Below, piece by piece: positions 35,290 to 59,556 of a DNA stretch of 64,000 nt. A program made the translations under genes and the position numbers. The stretch's first letter is position 1. The number at the start of each line of letters is the position of its first letter. Source of the stretch: Arenibacter antarcticus (lineage in GTDB: Bacteria; Bacteroidota; Bacteroidia; Flavobacteriales; Flavobacteriaceae); the NCBI RefSeq assembly GCF_041320605.1, contig NZ_CP166679.1:2714001-2778000 (forward strand). Reading direction: 5' to 3'. The notes under the pieces were generated by a model. It was not told where the DNA came from. It was given only the letters and a program-made list of their open reading frames with translations, and did not search any database.

Positions 35290-38200
35290 ATGGGAAAAAT
35301 TACTTTATTCAATAGTAAGGAAAAAGCACAAACAGGCATTATGCCGTTTATGGTCTTTTTGCTTTTTGGACTATTAACTTCGTTTAGCGAATTACCTGCC
35401 CATTTGGACGAAAGTCTTACGTTGTTGGATAATAATAGAATTCATGACTCAAATGTCAGTGGGAAAGGTGAAAATGCCATTATTAGTAAAGTGGAATGTA
35501 CAACACTTGAATCGAAAGCCCTTAAGGGATCTACTTTTGGTTTTCCTAAAGAGACTAATAACGGTAGTTTATCGGTAACAAATAAAGACTTGATTGGGAA
35601 ATTTGAGAATCAAGTCGATAAGGGAGGAAGATTCTTTTGGCATTCAGAGTCCGTGGTGACCCAAAAGGAATTTTATACAATGGCTCCTTATTTTTCAAAT
35701 GATATTGGCATAAGTCCTATTGATTATGTAAATAAGGATAGTGATAGTGATGGGGATGGTGTAACCAATAAAAAAGAAAAGGAAGATGGTACAGACCCTC
35801 AAGATCCATGCGATTTTATTTTGGCTCATCAAGACTGTGCTCCATCAGCAGCATGGAAGGCATTGGATTGCGATCGTGACGGAGTAATCAATGAAAAGGA
35901 AATTGAAGATTGTACAGATCTCAATGATTCTTGTGATCTTATATATACCAGTATGACACAATATCCTTCCTACGCCTGGAAAAAGGGGGATTGTGATGGG
36001 GACGGAGTGACCAATTGGCAAGAAGTCCAAGATAAGACGGACCCAACTGATCCGTGCGATTATTTGGTGACAAGCGTTACCTTACCCCAGAGCGGTGCTT
36101 TCCTAACTGCAGATTGCGATGGTGACGGAGTAATCAATGAAAAGGAAATTGAAGATTGTACAGATCTCAATGATTCTTGCGACCTTATATATACCAGTAT
36201 AACTATATTGCCCTCCTATTCTTGGAAAAAGGGCGATTGTGATGGGGACGGAGTGACCAATTGGCAAGAAGTCCAAGATAAGACGGACCCAACTGATCCG
36301 TGCGATTATTTGGTGACAAGCGTTACCTTACCCCAGAGCGGTTCTTTCCTAACTGCAGATTGCGATGGTGATGGAGTAATCAATGAAAAAGAAAAAGAAG
36401 ACGGGACAGACCCCTTGGATCCTTGCGACCTTATATATACCAGTATAACTATATTGCCCTCCTATTCTTGGAAAAAGGGCGATTGTGATGGGGACGGAGT
36501 GACTAATTGGCAAGAAGTCCAAGATAAGACGGACCCAACTGATCCGTGCGATTATTTGGTGACAAGCGTTACCTTACCCCAGAGCGGTGCTTTCCTAACT
36601 GCAGATTGCGATGGTGATGGAGTAATCAATGAAAAAGAAAAAGAAGACGGGACAGACCCCTTGGATCCTTGCGACCTTATATATACCAGTATAACTATAT
36701 TGCCCTCCTATTCTTGGAAAAAGAGCGATTGTGATGGGGACGGAGTGACCAATTGGCAAGAAGTCCAAGATAAGACGGACCCAACTGATCCGTGCGATTA
36801 TTTGGTGACAAGCGTTACCTTACCCCAGAGCGGTGCTTTCCTAACTGCAGATTGCGATGGTGATGGAGTAATCAATGAAAAAGAAAAGGAAGACGGAACA
36901 GATCCTCTAGATCCTTGTGAATTTGTATTGGAACACCAAACGGTACCTACTACATCCGAATGGAACGCGCTTGACTGCGACGGTGATGGGGTGACCAACG
37001 AAGATGAAAAAGAAGACGGTACAGATCCGTTAGACCCATGTAGTTATGACCCTGAAAGTGTTAGCTTGCCCCAGAGCGGTGCTTTCCTAACTGCAGATTG
37101 CGATGGTGATGGAGTAATCAATGAAAAAGAAAAGGAAGACGGAACAGATCCTCTAGATCCTTGTGAATTTGTATTGGAACACCAAACGGTACCTACTACA
37201 TCCGAATGGAACGCGCTTGACTGCGACGGTGATGGGGTGACCAACGAAGATGAAAAAGAAGACGGTACAGATCCGTTAGACCCATGTAGTTATGATCCTG
37301 AAAGTGTTAGCTTGCCCCAGAGCGGTGCTTACCTAACTGCGGATTGCGATGGTGATGGAGTGACCAATGAAAAAGAAAAAGAGGACGGGACAGATCCCCT
37401 AGATCCTTGTGAATTTGTATTGGAACACCAAACGGTACCTACTACATCCGAATGGAACGCGCTTGACTGCGACGGTGATGGGGTGACCAACGAAGATGAA
37501 AAAGAAGACGGTACAGATCCATTAGACCCATGTAGTTATGACCCTGCAAGTATTACATTATCTCCTTCTAAGGAATGGGAAGGGCTGGACTGTGATGATG
37601 ACGGTAACCCTAATGGAACAGATCCAGATCCGCTGGTAGCTACTGCTAGAGACGATTCTGACTCAACTCCAGCTTTGACCGAGGTAGCGATCAATATTTT
37701 AGAAAATGATGATTATCTGCCTAATAATGATCCTAATAATGTAGGTACTACTAGTTTGTCACAAATTGGCGGTACCGCCATTGGTAGTGTAACCTTGGAT
37801 GCTTTGACTGGTATGTTGACCTATATCCCAACCGTGTTAGAATCCAATACAACTGTCACCATTATTTATGAGGTTTGTAATGTTGATCCAGACCCTAGTG
37901 TTTGTGCATCGGCTATAGTTAGTATTCAAGTTGAGGCAAATACTCTTGATGCGGTAGACGATGATTTTAATGGAAATACTACTGGAGGAACAATTCCCGA
38001 TAGCAATGTGCTTTCTAACGATACTTTAAACGGTGTAACGGTACTACCCGAAGAGGTAACAATAACATCGACCCCTACGAATGAGCTTACGATCAATGAG
38101 GATGGAAGCATAAGTATCAGCCTAGGTACTGCCGAAGGGACCTACGCTATTGGCTATACCATCTGCGAAGTAGCCAATCCCACCAACTGCGATTCTGCTA

Positions 38201-39126
38201 CAGTAACGATCAGTGTTGGCCCAGGTAGTGGCAATACTCTTGATGCGGTAGATGATGATTATAGTGGAAGTACTACTGGAGGAACAATTCCCGATAGCAA
38301 TGTGCTTTCTAACGATACTTTAAACGGTGTAACGGTACTACCCGAAGAGGTGACTTTAACCTCGACTTCTACAGATCAGCTTACAATCAATGAGGATGGA
38401 AGTATAAGTGTCAGCCCAGGTACTGCCGAAGGGACCTACACTATTGACTATACCATCTGCGAAGTAGTTAATCCCACCAACTGCGATTCTGCTACAGTAA
38501 CGATCAGTGTTGGCCCAGGTAGTGGCAATACTCTTGATGCGGTAGATGATAATTATAGTGGAAGTACTTCTGGAGGAACAATTCCCGATAGCAATGTGCT
38601 TTCTAACGATACTTTAAACGGTGTAACGGTACTACCAGAAGAGATAACAATAACATCGACCCCTACGGATGAGCTAACGATTAATGAGGATGGTAGCATA
38701 AGTGTCAGCCCAGGTACTGCCGAAGGGACCTACACTATTGGCTATACCATCTGTGAAGTAGCCAATCCGTCCAACTGCGATTCTGCAACGGTAACAGTGG
38801 AGGTTGTAAAAGTAAATGAGGACGAAAAAATTGAGGTTAATCAATTGGTAACTCCCAATGCGGATGGCAAAAATGATTTCCTTTTTATTAGAGGGGTTAG
38901 AAATGCCAAAAACAATTCCTTACAAATCTATAATAGATGGGGGGTTGCTGTTTATAAAGGGAGTGGTTATAATAACCAAAATAATGTTTTTGATGGTAGA
39001 TCTAAAGGTAGATCGACGGTTACAGGTAGTGATTATTTGCCTGCCGGTGTTTATTATTACATTTTCCAGTACGAAAATAATCAAAGGAATATTACTGACA
39101 GTGGTTATATTTATTTGAGCCAATAA
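35290..39126 (+). CDS. large T9SS-secreted surface protein with calcium-type repeats and type-B C-terminus
   Basis: 1278 residues. A hydrophobic export segment (about 17-34); residues about 145-783 are thrombospondin-type-3-like DxDGDGVTNxxExxDGTDPxDPC repeats, many with two Cys; about 785-1165 holds one Ig/cadherin-like unit and three near-identical 98-residue units (DAVDDDYSGSTTGGTIPDSN); the last 98 residues are the gliding-motility-associated C-terminal domain (VTPNADGKNDF...IYNRWGVAVY...GVYYYIFQY), the type-B T9SS sorting signal. A PorP/SprF gene follows 15 bases later, its probable partner in secretion or anchoring. Probably a calcium-binding adhesin; the ligand is unknown. Confidence 0.9.
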   Translation: MGKITLFNSKEKAQTGIMPFMVFLLFGLLTSFSELPAHLDESLTLLDNNRIHDSNVSGKGENAIISKVECTTLESKALKGSTFGFPKETNNGSLSVTNKDLIGKFENQVDKGGRFFWHSESVVTQKEFYTMAPYFSNDIGISPIDYVNKDSDSDGDGVTNKKEKEDGTDPQDPCDFILAHQDCAPSAAWKALDCDRDGVINEKEIEDCTDLNDSCDLIYTSMTQYPSYAWKKGDCDGDGVTNWQEVQDKTDPTDPCDYLVTSVTLPQSGAFLTADCDGDGVINEKEIEDCTDLNDSCDLIYTSITILPSYSWKKGDCDGDGVTNWQEVQDKTDPTDPCDYLVTSVTLPQSGSFLTADCDGDGVINEKEKEDGTDPLDPCDLIYTSITILPSYSWKKGDCDGDGVTNWQEVQDKTDPTDPCDYLVTSVTLPQSGAFLTADCDGDGVINEKEKEDGTDPLDPCDLIYTSITILPSYSWKKSDCDGDGVTNWQEVQDKTDPTDPCDYLVTSVTLPQSGAFLTADCDGDGVINEKEKEDGTDPLDPCEFVLEHQTVPTTSEWNALDCDGDGVTNEDEKEDGTDPLDPCSYDPESVSLPQSGAFLTADCDGDGVINEKEKEDGTDPLDPCEFVLEHQTVPTTSEWNALDCDGDGVTNEDEKEDGTDPLDPCSYDPESVSLPQSGAYLTADCDGDGVTNEKEKEDGTDPLDPCEFVLEHQTVPTTSEWNALDCDGDGVTNEDEKEDGTDPLDPCSYDPASITLSPSKEWEGLDCDDDGNPNGTDPDPLVATARDDSDSTPALTEVAINILENDDYLPNNDPNNVGTTSLSQIGGTAIGSVTLDALTGMLTYIPTVLESNTTVTIIYEVCNVDPDPSVCASAIVSIQVEANTLDAVDDDFNGNTTGGTIPDSNVLSNDTLNGVTVLPEEVTITSTPTNELTINEDGSISISLGTAEGTYAIGYTICEVANPTNCDSATVTISVGPGSGNTLDAVDDDYSGSTTGGTIPDSNVLSNDTLNGVTVLPEEVTLTSTSTDQLTINEDGSISVSPGTAEGTYTIDYTICEVVNPTNCDSATVTISVGPGSGNTLDAVDDNYSGSTSGGTIPDSNVLSNDTLNGVTVLPEEITITSTPTDELTINEDGSISVSPGTAEGTYTIGYTICEVANPSNCDSATVTVEVVKVNEDEKIEVNQLVTPNADGKNDFLFIRGVRNAKNNSLQIYNRWGVAVYKGSGYNNQNNVFDGRSKGRSTVTGSDYLPAGVYYYIFQYENNQRNITDSGYIYLSQ
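35870..37560 (+). repeat. 246-bp tandem coding repeat
   Basis: Identical stretches recur exactly 246 bases apart: TTGGCAAGAAGTCC at 36015, 36261, 36507 and 36753, then GCGCTTGACTGCGACGG at 36967, 37213 and 37459. The unit encodes 82 residues (two 41-residue calcium-type modules). Some copies are almost identical at the DNA level, pointing to recent duplication or gene conversion; the second half uses a diverged version of the unit. Confidence 0.9.
37939..38815 (+). repeat. 294-bp tandem coding repeat (three copies)
   Basis: AATACTCTTGATGCGGTAGA occurs at 37939, 38233 and 38527. Each 294-base unit encodes a 98-residue Ig/cadherin-like domain; the copies are nearly identical. Confidence 0.9.
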
Positions 39127-39141
39127 AATATTTAATACTAG

Positions 39142-40095
39142 ATGAACTACAAAAAAAGTCTCTCCGTCACCGCTATAATGTTGTTTTCCCTATCTGTTGG
39201 GTTATATGCACAACAAGATGCCCAATTTACTCAGTATATGTATAATACCATGAGTGTAAATCCGGCCTATGTAGGATCTAGGGGGCAATTGAGTATTGCA
39301 GCATTATACCGATCACAATGGGTTGGACTGGAAGGTGCCCCCAAAACGCAAACCTTAAACCTACATTCGCCTATACGGAATAGTAGATTGGGCTATGGAA
39401 TCTCAGTGATAAATGACAACATTGGGAATGGAGTAGTTCAGGAAACCCAGTTTGATGCCGTATTGTCCTATACCATAGATTTGTCCATGGATGCTAAATT
39501 ATCCTTTGGATTAAAAGCAGGGGGTAATTTATTGAATTTAGATTTTAACGGATTGAACAATTTTGATTCGGAGAATATAGAAGGGGATAATATAGATAAT
39601 AAATTTTCACCCAATTTTGGGGTAGGAGTGTATTATCACTCTGATCAATTTTATGCTGGATTGTCTGCGCCAAATCTTATTGAAACACAGCATTTTGACA
39701 ATTCACAAAGAGATGCTAATTCCGTGCAGTTTCTCTCAACCGAAAGGATGAATTTCTATTTTATAACGGGCTATATCTTTGATTTGAATAACAATTTTAA
39801 ATTTAAACCGGCTTTGTTAACTAAAGTGGTTGGCGGGGCCCCATTACAGGTTGATGTGTCCGCAAGTTTTTTATTCAATGATGTATTTAGCTTTGGGGCA
39901 GCCTATAGATGGGATGCTGCTATAAGCGGTCTGGTAGGCTTTCAAATCAGCGAGCAGTTAATGATTGGCTTGGCTTATGATCGTGAGACCACGGAATTAG
40001 GGGGGACACAGTTTAATGATGGCTCATTTGAGGTGTTTTTAAGATTTGAATTGATAAGGTCCTTCAGCAGAATGGTATCGCCCCGTTTCTTCTAA
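39142..40095 (+). CDS. PorP/SprF family outer-membrane protein
   Basis: 317 residues with a signal peptide (cleaved near YAQ). The start of the mature part, QQDAQFTQYMYNTMSVNPAY, and the beta-barrel end RWDAAISGLVGFQISEQLMIGLAYDRETTELG...SPRFF are diagnostic of the PorP/SprF family. In Flavobacterium johnsoniae SprF is needed for SprB secretion; members next to type-B cargo usually serve that cargo. Here it follows the 1278-residue surface protein and overlaps the same transcript as the OmpA protein. Confidence 0.95.
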   Translation: MNYKKSLSVTAIMLFSLSVGLYAQQDAQFTQYMYNTMSVNPAYVGSRGQLSIAALYRSQWVGLEGAPKTQTLNLHSPIRNSRLGYGISVINDNIGNGVVQETQFDAVLSYTIDLSMDAKLSFGLKAGGNLLNLDFNGLNNFDSENIEGDNIDNKFSPNFGVGVYYHSDQFYAGLSAPNLIETQHFDNSQRDANSVQFLSTERMNFYFITGYIFDLNNNFKFKPALLTKVVGGAPLQVDVSASFLFNDVFSFGAAYRWDAAISGLVGFQISEQLMIGLAYDRETTELGGTQFNDGSFEVFLRFELIRSFSRMVSPRFF

Positions 40096-40105
40096 AAAAG
40101 ATAAA

Positions 40106-42043
40106 ATGATAAAAAGATTATTCTTATTGACGATTTTATTTTCTGGTTTTGGACTTGTTACCAATGCTCAGGAAAGATTGGTAAATAAGGCAAATGAAAA
40201 GTATGGGGATTACTCTTTCAGTCCGGCAATAGATATATATAAAAGAGTAGTGGACAAAGGGTATATTTCTGCAGATTTGTTGATGAAGCTTGGGAACTCC
40301 TATTACTTTAATGCCGACTATACCGAAGCATCGGAAACATACCAACAGTTGCTGGAAGAATATCCTGAAGCTATGGGTGCTGATTATTTCTTTAGGTATG
40401 CTCAAACCTTAAGGTCCCTAGGGGAATATGATAAATCAAAAGAGATTATGTCAAAATTCTCGGAAATAAAATCTACAGATATTAGGGCCACACTCTATAA
40501 AACGGAGAGGGATTATTTGGAAGAAATCGCGAAAAATTCTGGACGCTACCAAATAGGAGAATTTAAATTTAATTCAAAATATTCCGATTTTGCCCCTTCC
40601 TATTATAAGAAGGGACTACTATTTGCCTCGGATAGGGATACCGGAAATTTGGCAAGAAATAGGCATACCTGGAATTCCAAAGATTTTTTGGATCTCTACA
40701 AGGTAAATGTCGATAGTATCTCAGAAAATAAAGTGCTTAAATTTGATAAAGGAATAAACACCCGATTGCACGAATCTACCTCGGCCTTCACAAAAGATGG
40801 CAGCACACTTTACTTTACAAGAAATAATTCTTTTGAAGGAAAAACGGTAAAGGATAAAGGGGGAGTGGTCCGCTTAAAATTGTTTAAAGCGACTCAAATT
40901 GATGGGGTATGGACGCAGGTTGAGGAGCTCCCATTTAATAGTGATTCCTATTCCGTTGCGCATCCGACCCTGAGTCCAGATGAAAAGGTTCTATATTTTA
41001 CGTCCGATATGCCAGGAACTTATGGGGAGTCCGATATTTTTAAGGCAGCCATTAATGACGATGGTACCTATGGGACTCCTGTAAATTTGGGAAATATAAT
41101 AAATACGGAAGCCCGGGAGAGTTTTCCGTTCCTTTCTGCTGATAATATTTTATATTTTTCTTCCGATGGACATCCAGGCTTAGGTGGTTTGGATGTATTT
41201 GCAACAAAGATTTCCAAGAATCAATTTATTGGCAATGTGTTAAATGTAGGGGAGCCCATAAATAGTAGTTTGGATGATTTCACCTTCATCATTGATGAGG
41301 GGACCAAGAGTGGATATTTTGCCTCAAATAGAAAAGGAGGAATGGGGAGTGACGATATTTATAGTTTTGTGGAAACCAAACCCTTGGAGTTCAATTGTCT
41401 GAAACCAGTATCGGGTACGGTAAGGGATAAAATATCAAATGAGGTATTGACAGGTGCCACCGTGAAGGTGATAAATGAAAACAACGAGGAATTAACATCG
41501 GTAATTACGGATTCTAAAGGTACTTACAAGCTGATGGTAGATTGTAGTAAAGGGAATTTTGTAAGGGCTTCCATAAACGGCTATGTTCCCTCCGAAGAGT
41601 ATCTCAATATATCCGATAGTAAACCTATGATAATCGATTTCTATTTGGAAAGGGACTTGGTTACTGCGGGATTTGGGGACGACTTGGCGAAATTACTGCA
41701 ACTTAGTACAATCTATTTCGATTTTGATAGGTATAATATAAGGCCCGATGCAGAAATTGAAATACATAAGGTAATTGCCGCCATGGAAAAGTATTCTAGT
41801 TTAAAATTGAAGGTCACTTCACATACCGATAGCCAGGGCAAGGATTCCTATAACCTATGGTTGTCACAAAAACGGGCCGAAGCTACTACCGCCTATATGG
41901 TATCTAATGGAATTTCTAGGGATAGGTTAGAGGAGGAAGGGTATGGAGAAACCCGACTAGTAAATAGATGCAGCAATGGGGTAAAATGTACTCAAGAAGA
42001 ACACCAATCAAATCGTAGGTCGGAATTCCTAATTATAGAGTAA
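40106..42043 (+). CDS. OmpA family protein with TPR and beta-propeller repeats
   Basis: 645 residues. Signal peptide (TNAQ), TPR-like helices (about 25-125), PD40-type beta-propeller repeats (ADFAPSYYKKGLLFASDRDTGN, TLYFTRNN, LYFTSDMPGTYGESDIF, LYFSSDGHPGLGGLDVF), a CarboxypepD_reg-like beta domain (SGTVRDKISNEVLTGATVKV) and a C-terminal OmpA peptidoglycan-binding domain (STIYFDFDRYNIRPDAEIEIHKV ... TSHTDSQG). This is the PorE-like layout seen beside PorP/SprF genes; it could tie the secretion unit to the cell wall. Confidence 0.93.
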   Translation: MIKRLFLLTILFSGFGLVTNAQERLVNKANEKYGDYSFSPAIDIYKRVVDKGYISADLLMKLGNSYYFNADYTEASETYQQLLEEYPEAMGADYFFRYAQTLRSLGEYDKSKEIMSKFSEIKSTDIRATLYKTERDYLEEIAKNSGRYQIGEFKFNSKYSDFAPSYYKKGLLFASDRDTGNLARNRHTWNSKDFLDLYKVNVDSISENKVLKFDKGINTRLHESTSAFTKDGSTLYFTRNNSFEGKTVKDKGGVVRLKLFKATQIDGVWTQVEELPFNSDSYSVAHPTLSPDEKVLYFTSDMPGTYGESDIFKAAINDDGTYGTPVNLGNIINTEARESFPFLSADNILYFSSDGHPGLGGLDVFATKISKNQFIGNVLNVGEPINSSLDDFTFIIDEGTKSGYFASNRKGGMGSDDIYSFVETKPLEFNCLKPVSGTVRDKISNEVLTGATVKVINENNEELTSVITDSKGTYKLMVDCSKGNFVRASINGYVPSEEYLNISDSKPMIIDFYLERDLVTAGFGDDLAKLLQLSTIYFDFDRYNIRPDAEIEIHKVIAAMEKYSSLKLKVTSHTDSQGKDSYNLWLSQKRAEATTAYMVSNGISRDRLEEEGYGETRLVNRCSNGVKCTQEEHQSNRRSEFLIIE

Positions 42044-48200: not shown

Positions 48201-49233
48201 TGGCAATAACCCCTATTTTGTGGAAGCCTTGGATGCAGGAAACAATGTATTGGGCAGCATAACCGTAAATGTAACGGATTATGTGGATACTGGCCACCAA
48301 TTACATCCCTCGGCAACCGGAACTGCATATCTAGCATTGTTCCCCATTGATGACATCGCACCCTTGGGGAGTAAGATAAGGGCGTTAAGAATATCTTTTC
48401 CGGGGGCTACCTCAGATGGTCCGGATGGTAAAGTGTTTTTCTTTGGGAATTTCTCTGCAGCGAATTGCGATTCCGATGGTGATGGAATCCCAGATGTTCT
48501 TGATCTTGATTCTGATAATGACGGCATTTATGATGCGGTAGAAGCCGGACATAACCAACCACACACCAATGGTAAGGTAAATGGGCCGTATGGTCCCAAT
48601 GGTCTAGCCAATGTTGTGGAAACTTCACCGGATAGTGGTGTTATTAATTATTCTTTAATAGATACTGATAGTGACGCAACGCCAGATTATTTGGATGAGG
48701 ACAGTGATGGCGACAATTGTAACGATGCCAATGAAGCCTATCACGATCCCAATACCGATGCTGACAATAATGGAATGTATGGTTCAGGACTGCCTTCGGT
48801 ATATCCTGATGGGACCGTAATGGGAGCAATGTACCAAATACCTGAAGATGCAGATGCGAACGGAATTTATGATTTTATGGAGTTTGGCGTAACGCCAACT
48901 ATTACTACCCAACCCACCGATTTTAATATTTGCCCAGGTTGTATCGGGACAATCTTTGTAGAGGCAAGCCCTTCAGTAACTTACCAATGGCAGATTTTAT
49001 TGGGGACAGAATGGACTAACATAACAGATTACGGGGTCCACAATGGCGTTGCGACAGATAAACTTACGATTACCAATCCCACACCATCGGACTCCAATAA
49101 CAGCTATAGAGTAGTGGTTTCAAATTTTGTCAATGTTTGCGGGGTAGCAACCTCCGATAGTGCCACTTTAACCATAAAAGTGAAAACCGTAATTACCAAT
49201 CGAAGAATTACCTATCGGGTGAAGAAAAACTAA
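45238..49233 (+). CDS. very large secreted multidomain protein with KTVITNR C-terminal tail
   Basis: 1331 residues from a TTG start; signal peptide [20 protein letters not shown]...AIAQ. An unrecognised N-terminal domain (about 30-380) with [13 protein letters not shown] and MYEGGHDL resembles glutamine-amidotransferase-like folds, only as a guess. Then PKD/Ig-like (about 390-480), tandem-95 repeats (about 485-590, 725-810), a discoidin-like part (about 600-715), calcium-type [19 protein letters not shown] repeats, and an Ig-like domain. It ends [21 protein letters not shown], shared with the preceding protein. Possibly a surface adhesin or enzyme. Confidence 0.8.
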
Positions 49234-49734: not shown

Positions 49735-52700
49735 ATGACCAAAAAAATTCTACTACTTATTTTCCTGATATCCGGTTTTGCTTTCGCCCAAACCACAGTT
49801 ACCTTGGAAGACCAATGTAATTGTGAGGTTTTAAGCGGGACACTTGTTACAGCGGCTGCGGCGGCAACTCCATCAGGTGCAGATATTGGAGATATTTATG
49901 TAAATACAAATACCGGGACGATATACTTTTGGGATGGCGATTCTTGGGAATTGACGGCTACGGACACGAATACTACCAACACGAGCTTGACGCAAGATGG
50001 TACGGATCTTATATTGACGGACAGTGAGAACAATTCTGTAACCTTGGCCCTTGCGGATATTGCTGCGGCGACGAATACAAATACAACGAATGCCAATTTT
50101 GCGGTAGTGGGTGCGGATTTAGTGGTCACTGACAGCGAAGGAAATACAGTTTCAGTTCCAATTGTAGATATAGCAGCCAAGGGTAACGGTATAAAGTCTA
50201 CAGTGGACAATGGGGACGGTACGTTTACCTTGACCTATGATGATAATACGACATTTACTACCGCGGATTTAACTGGCCCACAAGGTTTAGCAGGAGCTGA
50301 TGGTAACGATGGTCCTACTGGCCCACAAGGTTTAGCAGGTCCCACGGGTGCTGATGGTAACGATGGCGCTGACGGTGTTCAAGGTCCACAAGGTATTCAA
50401 GGAAATGACGGTCCCGCCGGTCCACAAGGTCTAGCAGGTATTGATGGTAACGATGGCGCTCAGGGGCCACAAGGTATTCAAGGTAATGACGGTCCTACTG
50501 GTCCGCAAGGTTTAGCAGGTGCTGATGGAAACGATGGTGCAGATGGTGCTCAGGGTATTCAAGGAAATGACGGTCCTACTGGTCCACAAGGGCCAGCAGG
50601 TACTGATGGTAACGATGGTGCTGACGGCGCTCAAGGTCCAGCCGGTGCTGATGGTGCGCAAGGTTCAGCCGGTGCTGATGGCAACGATGGCGCTGATGGA
50701 GCTCAGGGTCTGCAAGGAATTCAAGGAAATGACGGTCCTACTGGTCCACAAGGGCTAGCAGGTACTGATGGTAACGATGGCGCTCAAGGTCCTACTGGAG
50801 CGGATGGTGCTCAAGGTCCCACTGGAGCCGATGGTGCTCAGGGTCCACAAGGAATTCAAGGAAATGACGGTCCCGCCGGTCCACAAGGTTTAGCAGGAGC
50901 TGATGGAAATGATGGTGCTGACGGAGCTCAAGGTCCTACAGGTGCTGATGGTGCGCAAGGTCCAGCCGGTGCTGATGGCAATGATGGTGCAGATGGTGTT
51001 CAGGGTCCGCAAGGAATTCAAGGAAATGACGGTCCTGCTGGTCCACAAGGTCTAGCAGGTATTGATGGTAACGATGGTGCTGATGGCGCTCAGGGGCCAC
51101 AAGGTATTCAAGGTAATGATGGCCCGACTGGCCCTACAGGAGCCGATGGTGCTCAGGGTCCGCAAGGAATTCAAGGAAATGACGGTCCCGCCGGTCCACA
51201 AGGTCTAGCAGGAGCTGATGGTAACGATGGTGCTGACGGTGCTCAAGGTCCAGCCGGTGCTGATGGTGCTGACGGAGCTCAGGGTCCGCAAGGAATTCAA
51301 GGAAATGACGGTCCTACTGGTCCACAAGGTTTAGCAGGTACTGATGGTAACGATGGTGCTGATGGCGCTGACGGTGCTCAAGGTCTGCAAGGTATTCAAG
51401 GAAATGACGGTCCTATTGGTCCACAAGGTCTAGCAGGTACTGATGGTAACGATGGTGCGCAAGGTCCAGCCGGTGCTAATGGTAACGATGGTGCTGATGG
51501 CGCTGACGGAGCTCAAGGTCCCACTGGAGCCGATGGTGCTCAGGGTCCACAAGGTCTACAAGGTATTCAAGGAAATGACGGTCCTGCTGGCCCACAAGGT
51601 TTAGCAGGAGCTGATGGTGCTGACGGTGCTCAAGGTCCACAAGGAATTCAAGGAAATGACGGTCCCGCCGGTCCACAAGGTTTAGCAGGTGCTGATGGAA
51701 ACGATGGCGCTGACGGAGCTCAAGGTCCTACAGGTGCTGATGGTACGCAAGGTCCAGCCGGTGCTGATGGCAATGATGGTGCAGATGGTGTTCAGGGTCC
51801 GCAAGGAATTCAAGGAAATGACGGTCCTGCTGGTCCACAAGGTCTAGCAGGTATTGATGGTAACGATGGTGCTGATGGCGCTCAGGGGCCACAAGGTATT
51901 CAAGGTAATGATGGCCCGACTGGCCCTACAGGAGCCGATGGTGCTCAGGGTCCGCAAGGAATTCAAGGAAATGACGGTCCCGCCGGTCCACAAGGTCTAG
52001 CAGGAGCTGATGGTAACGATGGTGCTGACGGTGCTCAAGGTCCGGCCGGTGCTGATGGTGCTCAGGGTCCGCAAGGAATTCAAGGTAATGACGGTCCTAC
52101 TGGTCCACAAGGTTTAGCAGGTACTGATGGTAACGATGGCGCTGACGGTGTTCAAGGTCCACAAGGAATTCAAGGAAATGACGGTCCCGCTGGTCCACAA
52201 GGTCTAGCAGGTATTGATGGTAACGATGGCGCTCAGGGGCCACAAGGTATTCAAGGTAATGATGGCCCGACTGGCCCTACAGGAGCCGATGGTGCTCAGG
52301 GTCCGCAAGGAATTCAAGGAAATGACGGTCCCGCCGGTCCACAAGGTCTAGCAGGAGCTGACGGTGCTCAAGGTCCAGCCGGTGCTGATGGCGCTCAGGG
52401 TCTGCAAGGAATTCAAGGAAATGACGGTCCCGCCGGTCCACAAGGTTTAGCAGGAGCTGATGGAAATGATGGTGCTGACGGAGCTCAAGGTCCTACAGGT
52501 GCTGATGGTGCGCAAGGTCCAGCCGGTGCTGATGGCAATGATGGTGCAGATGGTGCTCAAGGTCCACAAGGAATTCAAGGAAATGATGGTCCTACTGGCC
52601 CACAAGGTTTAGCAGGAGCCGATGGTAACGATGGTGCTGATGGAGCTCAGGGTCCCACTGGAGCCGATGGTGCAGATGGTGCTCAAGGTCTACAAGGAAT

Positions 52701-55700
52701 TCAAGGTAATGACGGTCCTACTGGTCCACAAGGTTTAGCAGGTACTGATGGTAACGATGGTGCTGATGGCGCTGATGGTGCTCAGGGTCCGCAAGGAATT
52801 CAAGGTAATGACGGTCCTACTGGTCCACAAGGTTTAGCAGGTACTGATGGTAACGATGGTGCTGATGGCGCTGACGGTGCTCAAGGTCTGCAAGGTATTC
52901 AAGGAAATGACGGTCCTGCTGGTCCACAAGGTCTAGCAGGTATTGATGGTGCTGATGGTGCTGATGGCGCTCAGGGTCCACAAGGTATTCAAGGAAATGA
53001 CGGTCCTGCTGGCCCACAAGGTTTAGCAGGTGCTGATGGTAACGATGGCGCTCAAGGTCCTACTGGAGCGGATGGTGCTCAGGGTCCACAAGGCCTACAA
53101 GGAATTCAAGGAAATGACGGTCCTGCTGGCCCACAAGGTTTAGCAGGAGCTGATGGTAACGATGGCGCTGACGGTGTTCAAGGTCCAGCCGGTGCTGATG
53201 GCGCTGACGGAGCTCAAGGTCCCACTGGAGCCGATGGTGCTCAGGGTCCACAAGGAATTCAAGGAAATGACGGTCCCGCCGGTCCACAAGGTTTAGCAGG
53301 AGCTGATGGAAATGATGGTGCTGACGGAGCTCAAGGTCCTACAGGTGCTGATGGTGCGCAAGGTCCAGCCGGTGCTGATGGCAATGATGGTGCAGATGGT
53401 GCTCAAGGTCCACAAGGAATTCAAGGAAATGATGGTCCTACTGGTCCTTCAGGAGCTGATGGAAATGATGGCGCTGACGGAGCTCAAGGTCCTACAGGTG
53501 CTGATGGTGCGCAAGGTCCAGCCGGTGCTGATGGCAACGATGGCGCTGACGGTGTTCAGGGTCCGCAAGGAATTCAAGGAAATGACGGTCCTACTGGAGC
53601 GGATGGTGCTCAGGGTCCAGCCGGTGCTGATGGCAACGATGGCGCTGATGGAGCTCAAGGTCCACAAGGCTTACAAGGAATTCAAGGAAATGATGGTCCT
53701 ACTGGCCCCACGGGCGCTGATGGCGCTCAGGGTCCGCAAGGAATTCAAGGAAATGACGGTCCTATTGGTCCACAAGGTCTAGCAGGTACTGATGGTAACG
53801 ATGGTACTGACGGCGCTCAAGGTCCAGCCGGTGCTAATGGTAACGATGGTGCTGATGGCGCTGACGGAGCTCAAGGTCCCACTGGAGCCGATGGTGCTCA
53901 GGGTCCACAAGGTCTACAAGGTATTCAAGGAAATGACGGTCCTGCTGGCCCACAAGGTTTAGCAGGTATTGATGGTAACGATGGTGCTGATGGTGCTGAT
54001 GGTGCTGACGGAGCTCAGGGTCCGCAAGGAATTCAAGGAAATGACGGTCCTATTGGTCCACAAGGTCTAGCAGGTACTGATGGTAACGATGGTACTGACG
54101 GCGCTCAAGGTCCAGCCGGTGCTAATGGTAACGATGGTGCTGATGGCGCTGACGGAGCTCAAGGTTCCACTGGAGCCGATGGTGCTCAGGGTCCACAAGG
54201 TCTACAAGGAATTCAAGGAAATGACGGTCCTGCTGGCCCACAAGGTTTAGCAGGAGCTGATGGTGCTGACGGTGCTCAAGGTCCACAAGGAATTCAAGGA
54301 AATGACGGTCCCGCCGGTCCACAAGGTTTAGCAGGTGCTGATGGAAACGATGGTGCAGATGGTGCTCAGGGTATTCAAGGAAATGATGGTCCTACTGGTC
54401 CTTCAGGAGCTGATGGAAATGATGGCGCTGACGGAGCTCAAGGTCCTACAGGTGCTGATGGTGCGCAAGGTCCAGCCGGTGCTGATGGCAATGATGGTGC
54501 TGACGGTGCTCAAGGTCCGCAAGGAATTCAAGGAAATGACGGTCCTATTGGTCCACGAGGTCTAGCAGGTACTGATGGTAACGATGGTGCTGATGGCGCT
54601 CAGGGGCCACAAGGAATTCAAGGAAATGACGGTCCCGCCGGTCCACAAGGTTTAGCAGGAGCTGATGGAAATGATGGTGCTGACGGAGCTCAAGGTCCTA
54701 CAGGTGCTGATGGTGCGCAAGGTCCAGCCGGTGCTGATGGCAATGATGGTGCAGATGGTGCTCAGGGTCCACAAGGAATTCAAGGAAATGACGGTCCTGC
54801 TGGTCCACAAGGTCTAGCAGGTATTGATGGTGCTGATGGTGCTGATGGCGCTCAGGGTCCACAAGGTATTCAAGGAAATGACGGTCCTGCTGGCCCACAA
54901 GGTTTAGCAGGTGCTGATGGTAACGATGGCGTTGATGGCGCTCAGGGTCCACAAGGCCTACAAGGTATTCAAGGAAATGACGGTCCTGCTGGCCCACAAG
55001 GTTTAGCAGGAGCCGATGGTAATGATGGCGTTGATGGCGCTCAGGGTCCACAAGGCCCACAAGGTTTAGCAGGAGCTGATGGTAACGATGGCGCTGACGG
55101 TGTTCAAGGTCCAGCCGGTGCTAATGGTAACGATGGTGCTGATGGCGCTGACGGAGCTCAAGGTCCCACTGGAGCCGATGGTGCTCAGGGTCCACAAGGA
55201 ATTCAAGGAAATGACGGTCCCGCCGGTCCACAAGGTTTAGCAGGAGCTGATGGAAATGATGGTGCTGACGGAGCTCAAGGTCCTACAGGTGCTGATGGTG
55301 CGCAAGGTCCAGCCGGTGCTGATGGAAACGATGGTGCAGATGGTGCTCAGGGTATTCAAGGAAATGATGGTCCTACTGGTCCTTCAGGAGCTGATGGCAA
55401 TGATGGTGCAGATGGTGTTCAGGGTCCGCAAGGAATTCAAGGAAATGACGGTCCTGCTGGTCCACAAGGTCTAGCAGGTATTGATGGTGCTGATGGCGCT
55501 CAGGGTCCACAAGGCCTACAAGGTATTCAAGGAAATGACGGTCCTGCTGGCCCACAAGGTTTAGCAGGTGCTGATGGCGCTGACGGAGCTCAGGGGCCAC
55601 AAGGTATTCAAGGAAATGACGGTCCTGCTGGCCCACAAGGTTTAGCAGGTGCTGATGGCGCTGACGGAGCTCAGGGGCCACAAGGTATTCAAGGAAATGA

Positions 55701-56523
55701 TGGTCCAATTGGTCCTACAGGAGCCGATGGTGCTCAGGGTCCGCAAGGTCCTACGGGCGCAGTAGGTCCAGCAGGAGATCCAGCGACAGATGATCAAACC
55801 TTGTCCACAAATGGAGATCCAGGAGATATAAGTATCTCAGGCGGAAACACTATTAGCTTAAATGTTAATGATGCCGATTTTGATCCTACCAATGAACTGC
55901 AGACCTTATCACAGACAGGTACCGATGTTACTTTGTCAAATGGTGGAGGAAGTATATCAGTAGCAGATAATGATAACGACCCTACTAACGAGATTCAAGA
56001 TGCATCCCAAGTAAGTTATACCAATACAACATCAGGATTAGCAGCAACAAATACTCAAGCAGCAATTGATGAATTGGCAGCAACAAGTACAGATGACCAA
56101 TATGATGACGAAGTTCTACTACGTGTGCCTATTGACGTTGATGATGCTGGCAAAACAGTGGTAACGAATGAAACAACCATACAGGAGGTAATACAAGCAA
56201 TTGCACCTATTACTTCAAAAGCGGCAAGGATATTTTATCCTCCTTCTATTGCGGTAGATGCTTCATCAACTGGAACAGGAAGAAAAATAGATTTACATGA
56301 TCAGTACATTACTCAATTTGGATCGCCTATGGTGTCCAGTAATTTAGCGCCTACTGCAATTCCGACCTATGCCAATACAGAACTTTATTACTATGTTACA
56401 CATTATGATAATTCGGTGTTTGACAATGTAAGTGTTGACGAATTTGGGGAAATGACCTATGATGTGATCGCAACACCAACAGATTACAATTCCTTGATCA
56501 ATGTAGTTTTTGTTGTAAAATAA
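49735..56523 (+). CDS. giant collagen-like (Gly-X-Y) secreted protein
   Basis: 2262 residues. Signal peptide (MTKKILLLIFLISGFAFAQ); an N-terminal region (about 20-180) with GDIYVNTNTGTIYFWDGDSWEL and beta-rich repeats; residues 181-2016 are Gly-X-Y triplets in one unbroken phase (about 612), built from a few modules (GPQGIQGNDG, GPQGLAGADGNDG, ADGAQGPTG); a 246-residue C-terminal region (DDQTLSTNG...AAIDELAAT...NVVFVVK) that may start trimerisation. Pro occurs only in X position, and I see no Lys and a single Arg in the repeat, which is rich in Asp. It likely forms a thin, acidic triple-helical fibre on the surface. No type-B T9SS domain is present; the next two genes provide one with a PorP/SprF. 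Confidence 0.9.
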   Translation: MTKKILLLIFLISGFAFAQTTVTLEDQCNCEVLSGTLVTAAAAATPSGADIGDIYVNTNTGTIYFWDGDSWELTATDTNTTNTSLTQDGTDLILTDSENNSVTLALADIAAATNTNTTNANFAVVGADLVVTDSEGNTVSVPIVDIAAKGNGIKSTVDNGDGTFTLTYDDNTTFTTADLTGPQGLAGADGNDGPTGPQGLAGPTGADGNDGADGVQGPQGIQGNDGPAGPQGLAGIDGNDGAQGPQGIQGNDGPTGPQGLAGADGNDGADGAQGIQGNDGPTGPQGPAGTDGNDGADGAQGPAGADGAQGSAGADGNDGADGAQGLQGIQGNDGPTGPQGLAGTDGNDGAQGPTGADGAQGPTGADGAQGPQGIQGNDGPAGPQGLAGADGNDGADGAQGPTGADGAQGPAGADGNDGADGVQGPQGIQGNDGPAGPQGLAGIDGNDGADGAQGPQGIQGNDGPTGPTGADGAQGPQGIQGNDGPAGPQGLAGADGNDGADGAQGPAGADGADGAQGPQGIQGNDGPTGPQGLAGTDGNDGADGADGAQGLQGIQGNDGPIGPQGLAGTDGNDGAQGPAGANGNDGADGADGAQGPTGADGAQGPQGLQGIQGNDGPAGPQGLAGADGADGAQGPQGIQGNDGPAGPQGLAGADGNDGADGAQGPTGADGTQGPAGADGNDGADGVQGPQGIQGNDGPAGPQGLAGIDGNDGADGAQGPQGIQGNDGPTGPTGADGAQGPQGIQGNDGPAGPQGLAGADGNDGADGAQGPAGADGAQGPQGIQGNDGPTGPQGLAGTDGNDGADGVQGPQGIQGNDGPAGPQGLAGIDGNDGAQGPQGIQGNDGPTGPTGADGAQGPQGIQGNDGPAGPQGLAGADGAQGPAGADGAQGLQGIQGNDGPAGPQGLAGADGNDGADGAQGPTGADGAQGPAGADGNDGADGAQGPQGIQGNDGPTGPQGLAGADGNDGADGAQGPTGADGADGAQGLQGIQGNDGPTGPQGLAGTDGNDGADGADGAQGPQGIQGNDGPTGPQGLAGTDGNDGADGADGAQGLQGIQGNDGPAGPQGLAGIDGADGADGAQGPQGIQGNDGPAGPQGLAGADGNDGAQGPTGADGAQGPQGLQGIQGNDGPAGPQGLAGADGNDGADGVQGPAGADGADGAQGPTGADGAQGPQGIQGNDGPAGPQGLAGADGNDGADGAQGPTGADGAQGPAGADGNDGADGAQGPQGIQGNDGPTGPSGADGNDGADGAQGPTGADGAQGPAGADGNDGADGVQGPQGIQGNDGPTGADGAQGPAGADGNDGADGAQGPQGLQGIQGNDGPTGPTGADGAQGPQGIQGNDGPIGPQGLAGTDGNDGTDGAQGPAGANGNDGADGADGAQGPTGADGAQGPQGLQGIQGNDGPAGPQGLAGIDGNDGADGADGADGAQGPQGIQGNDGPIGPQGLAGTDGNDGTDGAQGPAGANGNDGADGADGAQGSTGADGAQGPQGLQGIQGNDGPAGPQGLAGADGADGAQGPQGIQGNDGPAGPQGLAGADGNDGADGAQGIQGNDGPTGPSGADGNDGADGAQGPTGADGAQGPAGADGNDGADGAQGPQGIQGNDGPIGPRGLAGTDGNDGADGAQGPQGIQGNDGPAGPQGLAGADGNDGADGAQGPTGADGAQGPAGADGNDGADGAQGPQGIQGNDGPAGPQGLAGIDGADGADGAQGPQGIQGNDGPAGPQGLAGADGNDGVDGAQGPQGLQGIQGNDGPAGPQGLAGADGNDGVDGAQGPQGPQGLAGADGNDGADGVQGPAGANGNDGADGADGAQGPTGADGAQGPQGIQGNDGPAGPQGLAGADGNDGADGAQGPTGADGAQGPAGADGNDGADGAQGIQGNDGPTGPSGADGNDGADGVQGPQGIQGNDGPAGPQGLAGIDGADGAQGPQGLQGIQGNDGPAGPQGLAGADGADGAQGPQGIQGNDGPAGPQGLAGADGADGAQGPQGIQGNDGPIGPTGADGAQGPQGPTGAVGPAGDPATDDQTLSTNGDPGDISISGGNTISLNVNDADFDPTNELQTLSQTGTDVTLSNGGGSISVADNDNDPTNEIQDASQVSYTNTTSGLAATNTQAAIDELAATSTDDQYDDEVLLRVPIDVDDAGKTVVTNETTIQEVIQAIAPITSKAARIFYPPSIAVDASSTGTGRKIDLHDQYITQFGSPMVSSNLAPTAIPTYANTELYYYVTHYDNSVFDNVSVDEFGEMTYDVIATPTDYNSLINVVFVVK
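50275..55782 (+). repeat. 5.5-kb collagen-coding repeat array
   Basis: 9-base Gly-X-Y codon periodicity without phase break from 50275 to 55782. Higher-order copies are visible: one block of a few hundred bases at about 50,860-51,240 recurs nearly identically 792 bases (88 triplets) later. A similar pair is around 51,440-51,600 and 53,780-54,240. The array will recombine easily and may be mis-sized in a short-read assembly. Confidence 0.92.
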
Positions 56524-58587: not shown

Positions 58588-59556
58588 ATGCTATACCCAA
58601 TAAAAAGACGATTTTCACATCATCAATTTTCATTTTTGTGCATGCTGATCCTTTTATTATTGGGGTTAGAAGTTAAGGCGCAACAAGATGCCCAATATAC
58701 CCAGTATATGTATAATACGGTAAGCGTAAACCCTGGGTATACAGGGTCTAGGGGCCATATAAGTATTGCGGCCCTTCATAGGTCGCAATGGGTCGGTTTG
58801 GAGGGTGCACCCACTACACAGACCTTAAATATACATTCTCCGATTGGATATAGGGGAGTAGGCTTGGGGGTTTCTGTTGTGAACGATAAGATTGGGCCTA
58901 CTTCAGAAACCTATTTTGATGGCGATTTTTCATATACCATCCATACCTCTAGTGAGGGTAGATTGAGCTTTGGTCTTAAAGCCAGTGCACATCTATTGGA
59001 TATACGGTTCTCTGAATTAAACCAGGATTATACTAATCCCGGAAAGGTCGATCCTACCTTAGAACACGATATCGACAATAAATTTTCCCCCAATATTGGT
59101 GCAGGTGTGTATTATCGCACCAATAAATATTATGTAGGACTCTCAGTCCCTAGATTTTTACAGACCACACATTTTGACGGGCAATCACTTTCAACCGCTC
59201 AAGAGCAGATGAATTTTTATCTGATAACAGGCTATGTCTTTGATTTGAATGCCAATTTAAAATTTAAGCCTACCCTATTGTCGAAAGTAGTACAAGGCGC
59301 ACCCTTGCAATTAGATTTTTCTGCCAACTTTATACTCAATGATAAATTTATTTTGGGGGCAGGGTATAGATGGGATGCCGCAGTAAGTGCTATGGCCGGA
59401 TTTCAAATATCAAGTGAGTTTTTAATTGGTATCGCATATGACAGGGAAACCACGGAATTAGGGCAAGCTGTATTTAATGATGGTTCTTTTGAGATTATTC
59501 TACGCTACGATTTTATAAAGCAATTGACCAATTTAAAATCTCCCCGATTTTTCTAA
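58588..59556 (+). CDS. PorP/SprF family outer-membrane protein (second copy)
   Basis: 322 residues with signal peptide (VKAQ). QQDAQYTQYMYNTVSVNPGYTGSRGHISIAALHRSQWVGLEGAP is nearly identical to the first PorP/SprF at 39142, as is the end (RWDAAVSAMAGFQISSEFLIGIAYDRETTELG...SPRFF); the middle parts differ. It starts four bases after the type-B protein and is its probable export or anchoring partner. Confidence 0.95.
   Translation: MLYPIKRRFSHHQFSFLCMLILLLLGLEVKAQQDAQYTQYMYNTVSVNPGYTGSRGHISIAALHRSQWVGLEGAPTTQTLNIHSPIGYRGVGLGVSVVNDKIGPTSETYFDGDFSYTIHTSSEGRLSFGLKASAHLLDIRFSELNQDYTNPGKVDPTLEHDIDNKFSPNIGAGVYYRTNKYYVGLSVPRFLQTTHFDGQSLSTAQEQMNFYLITGYVFDLNANLKFKPTLLSKVVQGAPLQLDFSANFILNDKFILGAGYRWDAAVSAMAGFQISSEFLIGIAYDRETTELGQAVFNDGSFEIILRYDFIKQLTNLKSPRFF

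Follow-up and report, generated by a model that had tools for sequence, protein, structure and literature searches.

Bacterial collagen-like proteins and the pairs of Type B proteins with PorP/SprF proteins in the type IX secretion system (T9SS) are both already known. Scl1/Scl2, BclA, Lcl and PclA are secreted and contain a Gly-X-Y region between non-collagen ends; two Scl proteins have 50 and 79 triplets, and the Bcl regions span 27-1158 residues (PMC8968730). Pneumococcal PclA must also be large, given that its two-gene cluster occupies 9634 bp (PMC9276737), and the available portion of PMC13233619 gives no lengths of collagen arrays. In SprB-SprF and other Type B CTD/PorP pairs of Flavobacterium johnsoniae, the PorP/SprF gene lies directly downstream of the Type B gene; the two Type B substrates that have been tested need the PorP/SprF shuttle, which is commonly encoded in this position (PMC12618676, PMC9143113). 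The PorE-PorP-PG1035 complex of Porphyromonas gingivalis combines a Type B protein with a PorP-like barrel, and the authors of these papers speculate that PorE-containing operons give rise to static, wall-anchored complexes (PMC12618676, PMC9143113).

The locus analyzed here shares features with all of these systems. It differs from the Scl/Bcl-type collagens, as covered in the accessible part of PMC8968730, in its 1836 collagen residues, the lack of Lys and the link to a T9SS cassette, and also in that relatives have other repeats in place of collagen at this locus. In contrast to the SprB-SprF pairs, the giant adhesin-like chain is encoded by a separate, CTD-less upstream gene and the CTD resides in a 674-aa partner. 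A PorE-like OmpA gene is present upstream in the analyzed stretch, whereas in the P. gingivalis complex, in the relevant part of PMC9143113, no long fibre is attached. The trimeric autotransporter adhesins (type Vc) likewise have a long stalk between conserved ends, the trimer being presumed for the present protein; no YadA anchor was detected in it, and membership in this class is unsupported. The literature searched contains no paper that joins such collagens with T9SS, no expression data, and no description of a T9SS cassette whose collagen fibre has an exchangeable shaft.

The collagen gene and its neighbourhood

The fibre gene of Arenibacter antarcticus is located in a 64-kb window, the whole stretch of DNA analyzed here (2714001-2778000 of a single contig of 4,694,007 bp; Table 1). 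At the level of the assembly, the location inside one such contig argues against a short-read artefact. The initial annotation described a collagen of 2262 residues that contains about 612 Gly-X-Y triplets in an uninterrupted row, and both figures are borne out by the open reading frame and the run count: the triplets are in register with zero phase breaks, and the second-longest in-register Gly run in the protein is 2 triplets. When the residues of the protein were shuffled 200 times, the longest Gly run was 5.6 on average and 12 at most, compared to 612 in the real sequence, and no further run of at least 8 triplets was listed when all six frames of the window were scanned. The Pfam Collagen family (PF01391) matches the protein with an E-value of 1.9e-277, and the GC content of the array is 0.556 compared to 0.407 across the window. 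The description of the protein as very long holds against the Bcl regions cited above and does not hold against a 5372-aa collagen encoded in the same genome, and is further qualified by a non-collagen orthologue of up to 4618 aa; we make no claim of record length for either collagen. With a helix rise of 0.286 nm per residue, the predicted length of the shaft, if fully helical, is about 525 nm. A search of the 501 bp upstream of the gene yielded no site for the consensus of the Bacteroidota -7/-33 type, and sigma-70-like sites are not enriched between positions 49000 and 60000 of the window (16 compared to 19.2 in shuffles).

Table 1. Features of the fibre locus (window positions) and of the larger collagen locus (genome positions, last two lines)
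Feature	Positions	Strand	Remarks
CHU_C Type B protein of second Type B set	35290-39126	+	13 TSP3 stretches; same orientation as fibre gene
PorP/SprF of second Type B set	39142-40095	+	
PorE-like OmpA protein	40106-42043	+	best NCBIfam matches CHU_0125_OmpA and T9SS_PorE, both below cut-offs; end of second Type B set (35290..42043)
Large Big_9 protein, 1331 aa	45238..49233	+	upstream of fibre gene
Fibre ORF	49735..56523	+	ATG start, 2262 aa
Predicted Sec signal peptide	49735..49788	+	residues 1-18, MTKKILLLIFLISGFAFA; cleavage site by eye; next region starts at 49789
N-terminal region	49789..50274	+	residues 19-180; conserved QTTVTLEDQCNCEVLSGT start, then short beta-type stretch
Collagen shaft	50275..55782	+	residues 181-2016; 612 Gly-X-Y triplets
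C-terminal stalk	55783..56217	+	residues 2017-2161; DPTNELQ/DPTNEIQ-type repeats
Conserved C-terminal domain	56218..56520	+	residues 2162-2262; ends INVVFVVK
Type B partner, 674 aa	56559..58583	+	CHU_C/TIGR04131 and two Big_9 stretches; 35 bp after fibre gene
PorP/SprF family outer-membrane protein	58588..59556	+	presumed cognate shuttle; 4 bp after partner gene
Larger collagen, 5372 aa	2629210-2645328	-	1713 unbroken triplets (residues 128-5266); about 120 kb from fibre gene
1397-aa non-collagen protein	2647349-2651542	-	N-terminus resembles that of larger collagen

The T9SS cargo and PorP/SprF genes noted next to the collagen in the initial annotation are indeed there. The 674-aa protein is assigned to the Type B cargo of T9SS on the basis of a TIGR04131 match over the cut-off (48.5 bits compared to 35) together with the PorP/SprF gene directly downstream, which itself matches TIGR03519 (E 5.1e-83). 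No CTD was found in the 1331-aa Big_9 protein; proteins that resemble it precede the fibre gene in four other loci (L061, L063, L066 and L101), and an Ig_7 protein is also encoded upstream of the fibre gene. The PorE-like set of the window is a possible cell-wall anchor. SprA is encoded elsewhere in the same genome (TIGR04189, 2882.6 bits).

The ends of the fibre protein could not be assigned to any known family by comparison with Pfam, NCBIfam and PDB sequences. In particular, neither end yielded a Pfam match over the cut-off; the C-terminal 246 aa, in which no YadA-type membrane anchor was detected, matched no Pfam family at E <= 1 and nothing in NCBIfam, including the Type A family TIGR04183, at E <= 0.1. 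The C-terminal domain had no match among PDB sequences, and the best matches of the N-terminal region were chains named Cake (E >= 0.069). A Type B TIGR04131/CHU_C domain was detected in the fibre protein by neither Pfam nor NCBIfam, and hhalign comparison of the C-terminal domain to Type B CTDs gave a probability of 0.2%. A phage tail fibre origin was considered and rejected, with no PHROG hits for the N- and C-terminal regions at E <= 0.001 and no tblastn match of the C-terminal domain at E <= 0.01 among 50,697 phage records. A first structural model of the C-terminus was weak (pLDDT 69) and had no PDB match at E <= 0.001; in a second, AlphaFold2 model (pLDDT 89.4, pTM 0.79), the domain is predicted to be compact, with strands of 6-10 residues as the last four elements, and has no clear match among solved structures, although such absence proves nothing.

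The N-terminal region contains the only two cysteines of the protein, Cys28 and Cys30, and its beta-type stretch ends with a pre-collagen motif, NGIKSTVDNGDGTFTLTYDDNTTFTTADLT, a putative hairpin recognized by eye. The mature N-terminus, of the QTTV-L-DQCNCEVL type with the two Cys, is present in 16 of the 16 loci tested, two of which (L101 and L178) represent one gene.

Conservation of the cassette and proposed export of the fibre

A scan of the genome_contigs collection for relatives confirmed 208 of 235 candidate stretches, of which the best 80 were kept. The order fibre gene, Type B partner, PorP is found in 77 of these best 80 loci, where the partner is 61-78% identical to the 674-aa protein of the window and the cassette is followed in most cases by the same genes, for NUDIX, PTPS and mannose-6-phosphate isomerase. 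The C-terminal domain is present in all 18 genomes of the genus, in 33 of 149 genomes of the family at E <= 0.001 (22 of these at E < 1e-30, with some of the weaker matches spanning stalk repeats alone) and in 13 of 395 genomes of the phylum, short frames of 192-222 aa included. When the N-terminal part of the partner was used as an independent query, 22 of the 149 family genomes matched at E < 1e-50, a set identical to the 22 genomes in which the C-terminal domain matches strongly; two extra matches are weak (E 1.5e-5 and 9.6e-4). This co-occurrence reflects shared descent and position besides function and does not amount to a significance test.

The three exceptions among the best 80 loci (L130, L154 and L187) come from two Aquimarina genomes and one metagenome genome. 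They encode complete proteins of 209-237 aa (L130:1048-1761, L154:877-1539, L187:944-1573) in which the C-terminal domain is preceded by no shaft, only by a leader and by a short head that differs from that of the cassette fibres and lacks the N-terminal Cys motif. Partner-like matches downstream are weak, at 33-34% over 183-216 aa, and PorP is absent from the matches listed. Thus, the C-terminal domain can exist without a fibre or a cassette, and these proteins are possibly minimal forms of the fibre protein.

Several variants of the cassette were observed. Partner length varies as well: three Arenibacter genomes (L094, L108, L109) encode a Type B partner of just 469-476 aa, compared to 674 aa in the window. 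Five divergent cassettes (L071, L072, L073, L110, L112) encompass a gene for the C-terminal domain, a gene for a Type B protein of about 412-426 aa, and a PorP gene. Three of them also encode, between the fibre gene and the Type B gene, a large protein in which no CTD was detected, and wherever the sequence extends that far, a PorE-like gene comes next after PorP.

Given that no known T9SS signal was found in the fibre protein, its export probably proceeds via the Type B partner, and the simplest reading of the gene arrangement is that the 674-aa protein would serve the fibre in both export and anchoring. The proposal that we favour, with a probability of roughly 0.55, is that the gene encodes a subunit of a giant surface fibre that is exported and statically anchored through the Type B partner and PorP. 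The protein would be the shaft-forming subunit of a probably homotrimeric fibre: three chains would trimerise, with the flanking domains seeding assembly and the Cys pair possibly locking it. The Type B partner would bind the conserved C-terminal domain, a contact suggested by gene linkage only, and might carry the fibre through the SprA translocon; PorP, with the PorE-like protein, would anchor the complex, which would form a static fibre of about half a micrometre with an adhesive or spacer role. The shaft would thus serve as a module of length and charge and the ends as fixed connectors. The PorE-like gene found directly after the cassette PorP in four loci (L066, L071, L110, L112) favours the static model. 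Conserved gene order and co-occurrence give good support to the link of an exported surface fibre to the T9SS neighbours, which had been suggested from adjacency.

The main competitor, which we regard as rather unlikely, is that the C-terminal domain is itself an undescribed T9SS signal read directly by PorP/SprF, the Type B protein being an independent cargo from the same operon. The domain occupies the extreme C-terminus and its final strand is almost invariant; it accompanies the same PorP in the 77 loci and caps the short shaft-less proteins, as a portable signal would. Yet profile comparison with Type B CTDs showed no similarity, the domain has no NCBIfam or Pfam CTD hit, and the PorP that would read it is missing from the matches listed near the three short proteins. 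Moreover, the larger collagen and other arrays located beside Type B genes (see below) have C-termini different from that of the window fibre, so that a rule shared by all of them fits the partner better. A generalization of the favoured proposal, in which giant CTD-less trimeric fibres, whether of collagen or of other repeats, piggyback on a Type B partner of their own and its PorP shuttle in a two-partner form of type IX secretion, is advanced only tentatively; in the pertinent part of PMC10994853, a CTD-less protein appears as a control and not as CTD-less cargo. If piggybacking were true, Bacteroidota could swap and lengthen shafts, up to 1713 triplets (about 1.5 micrometres), while leaving the export signal untouched. 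Should the partner indeed carry the fibre, the cargo of T9SS would extend beyond proteins with a signal of their own, and giant proteins would join the secretome.

Composition and exchange of the shaft

The X positions of the window array are occupied mainly by Ala (206), Pro (176) and Asn (97), and the Y positions mainly by Asp (244), Gln (225) and Ala (87). Among its 1836 residues there are 245 Asp, a single Arg, and no Lys or Glu; Asp occupies Y in 40% of the triplets, and the net charge is about -0.40 per triplet. All 24 arrays tabulated are net negative, from -0.10 to -0.42 per triplet. KGD/KGE pairs number 181 in the larger collagen and 0 in the window array. With 40% Asp at Y and no Lys, a stable triple helix of the window array is not assured; a requirement for divalent cations in sea water is a speculation that might be entertained. 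The shaft could be conceived of as a non-helical polyanionic brush, with Gly-X-Y forming an extended acidic chain, which would be compatible with the cassette and export parts of the favoured proposal and with the acidity of all tabulated arrays. We consider this improbable: the strict Gly at every third residue and the confinement of Pro to X (176 of 177) are hallmarks of collagen, many orthologous arrays carry Lys and KGD/KGE motifs, and triple helices are known from collagen-like regions that lack hydroxyproline (PMC8968730). Lys-free, very acidic collagens and the array of 1713 triplets are material for the physics of the triple helix and for biomaterials.

In the relatives, the ends of the fibre protein are conserved and the shaft is exchanged: it consists of collagen, of beta-type repeats or, in three loci, of nothing. 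Within the cassette, which is conserved in many Flavobacteriaceae, shaft type and length change freely. Collagen (at least 15 triplets) is seen in the visible part of 19 of the best 80 loci and not in that of the other 61, with 65 of the fibre frames running off the contig and 15 contained in it. The 15 contained frames comprise the 3 shaft-less proteins, 5 that are gap-cut or split (L118, L132, L150, L159, L181), one with an internal gap (L121) and 6 that are gap-free. Within the genus, 12 of 18 genomes have a collagen shaft, and a 13th (G159, L099/L181) shows collagen once the gap-broken frame is read stop to stop. Mixed shafts of beta-type repeats followed by collagen are found in Arenibacter with 69 (L100), 89 (L095) and 277 (L097) triplets, and a complete Arenibacter orthologue of 2899 aa (L101, identical to L178) has no collagen at all. 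A complete relative from the family (L061) contains 346 triplets. The nine complete, gap-free non-collagen orthologues range from 966 to 4618 aa (L160, 966; L158, 2657; L137, 2721; L152, 2799; L101, 2899; L151, 2938; L066, 3536; L063, 3923; L069, 4618), and eight of them are longer than the window protein. In a 2063-aa protein of one divergent cassette (L073:2300-8491), short collagen stretches alternate with the pre-array motif of the window protein.

The shaft types were mapped onto a phylogeny built from the two partner proteins. Of the 113 loci offered, 90 rows were kept, including the window, the rest having no strong partner, PorP or C-terminal match or a partner already included; 50 of the 90 were dropped, their shafts being too short for a call, and the 40 scored comprise 24 with collagen and 16 without, some of the latter containing assembly gaps or being incomplete (at least 2000 aa visible). 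On this tree, a quick one with long branches in some rows, shaft type changes 7 times compared to 12.8 in shuffles, and at least 5 of the 7 switches are forced by well-supported branches. A single long collagen becomes a testable system, with conserved connectors, likely export partners and a shaft that has switched at least five times.

Such variation, the existence of relatives without any shaft and the recent duplication shown by exact DNA repeats, the longest of which within the window array is 298 bp, would be expected also if the array had expanded as a neutral repeat, with no role under selection, and the ends alone mattered. This appears quite unlikely, however, given the 612 triplets (or 1713 in the larger collagen) without a phase break, against slight breaks in the truncated orthologues of the larger array. 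Furthermore, the Gly codons of the window array (GGT 395, GGA 133, GGC 75, GGG 9) have their first two bases fixed in 612 of 612 cases while the third base varies, as expected of a translated, selected protein; only this third-base count is used here, because the outcome of a codon test on identical peptides follows in part from how the test is set up. The least probable alternative is a fibre of the trimeric autotransporter type (type V) whose own C-terminal strands would insert in the outer membrane, the T9SS genes being uninvolved neighbours: the long stalk and the modelled C-terminal strands recall such proteins, but the strands are predicted to be of mere 6-10 residues within a compact fold, the 246-aa C-terminus hits neither the YadA-type nor any other family at E <= 1, and the linkage to Type B and PorP genes is strong.

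A larger collagen and other long arrays

The larger collagen of the same genome is 2.4 times as long as the window fibre protein, and its array, if fully helical, would extend over about 1.47 micrometres. It is flanked by small CHU_C Type B proteins, one of 392 aa encoded directly downstream, which passes the TIGR04131 cut-off, and one of 382 aa upstream, which falls short of it (31.4 compared to 35). The 382-aa gene directly follows the gene for the 1397-aa non-collagen protein (Table 1), and judging by the sequences, this pair has the same layout with another shaft.

The N-terminal region of the larger collagen is matched at E < 1e-50 in 15 of the 18 genus genomes. Its orthologues contain 371 triplets (L213, complete), 816 plus 23 (L210, with a gap), and 487 and 230 in two frames around a gap (L211); in two contig-cut orthologues with 944 (L209) and 723 (L212) triplets, the array consists of four runs each, with small phase breaks. 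Set against the arrays of these five loci, that of 1713 triplets is expanded, and unbroken, in the species of the window.

Collagen matches are found in 48 of the 149 family genomes at E <= 0.001, 37 of them over the cut-off, and the longest collagen frames among the matches listed are 5385, 2360, 2267 and 1568 aa. We examined 13 arrays of at least 100 triplets that lie outside window-type cassettes and whose downstream stretches could be read (L193, two in L194, L195, L196, L197, L198, two in L202, the larger collagen, L210, L211 and L213), a non-random choice from the best-scoring family rows and the genus matches; L199 ran off its contig. A Type B protein is encoded directly after the array in 8 of the 13, after one frame in two (L194, L211) and after several frames in one (L210), and none was found in the remaining two (L193 and one in L202). 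The recurrence of a CTD-less collagen ahead of a Type B gene among other long arrays is in line with the favoured proposal. Three loci (L206-L208) encode a distinct kind of small protein, which has a Cys of lipoprotein type close to its N-terminus and only 12-26 collagen triplets; in L206 and L208 these proteins are encoded in tandem pairs.
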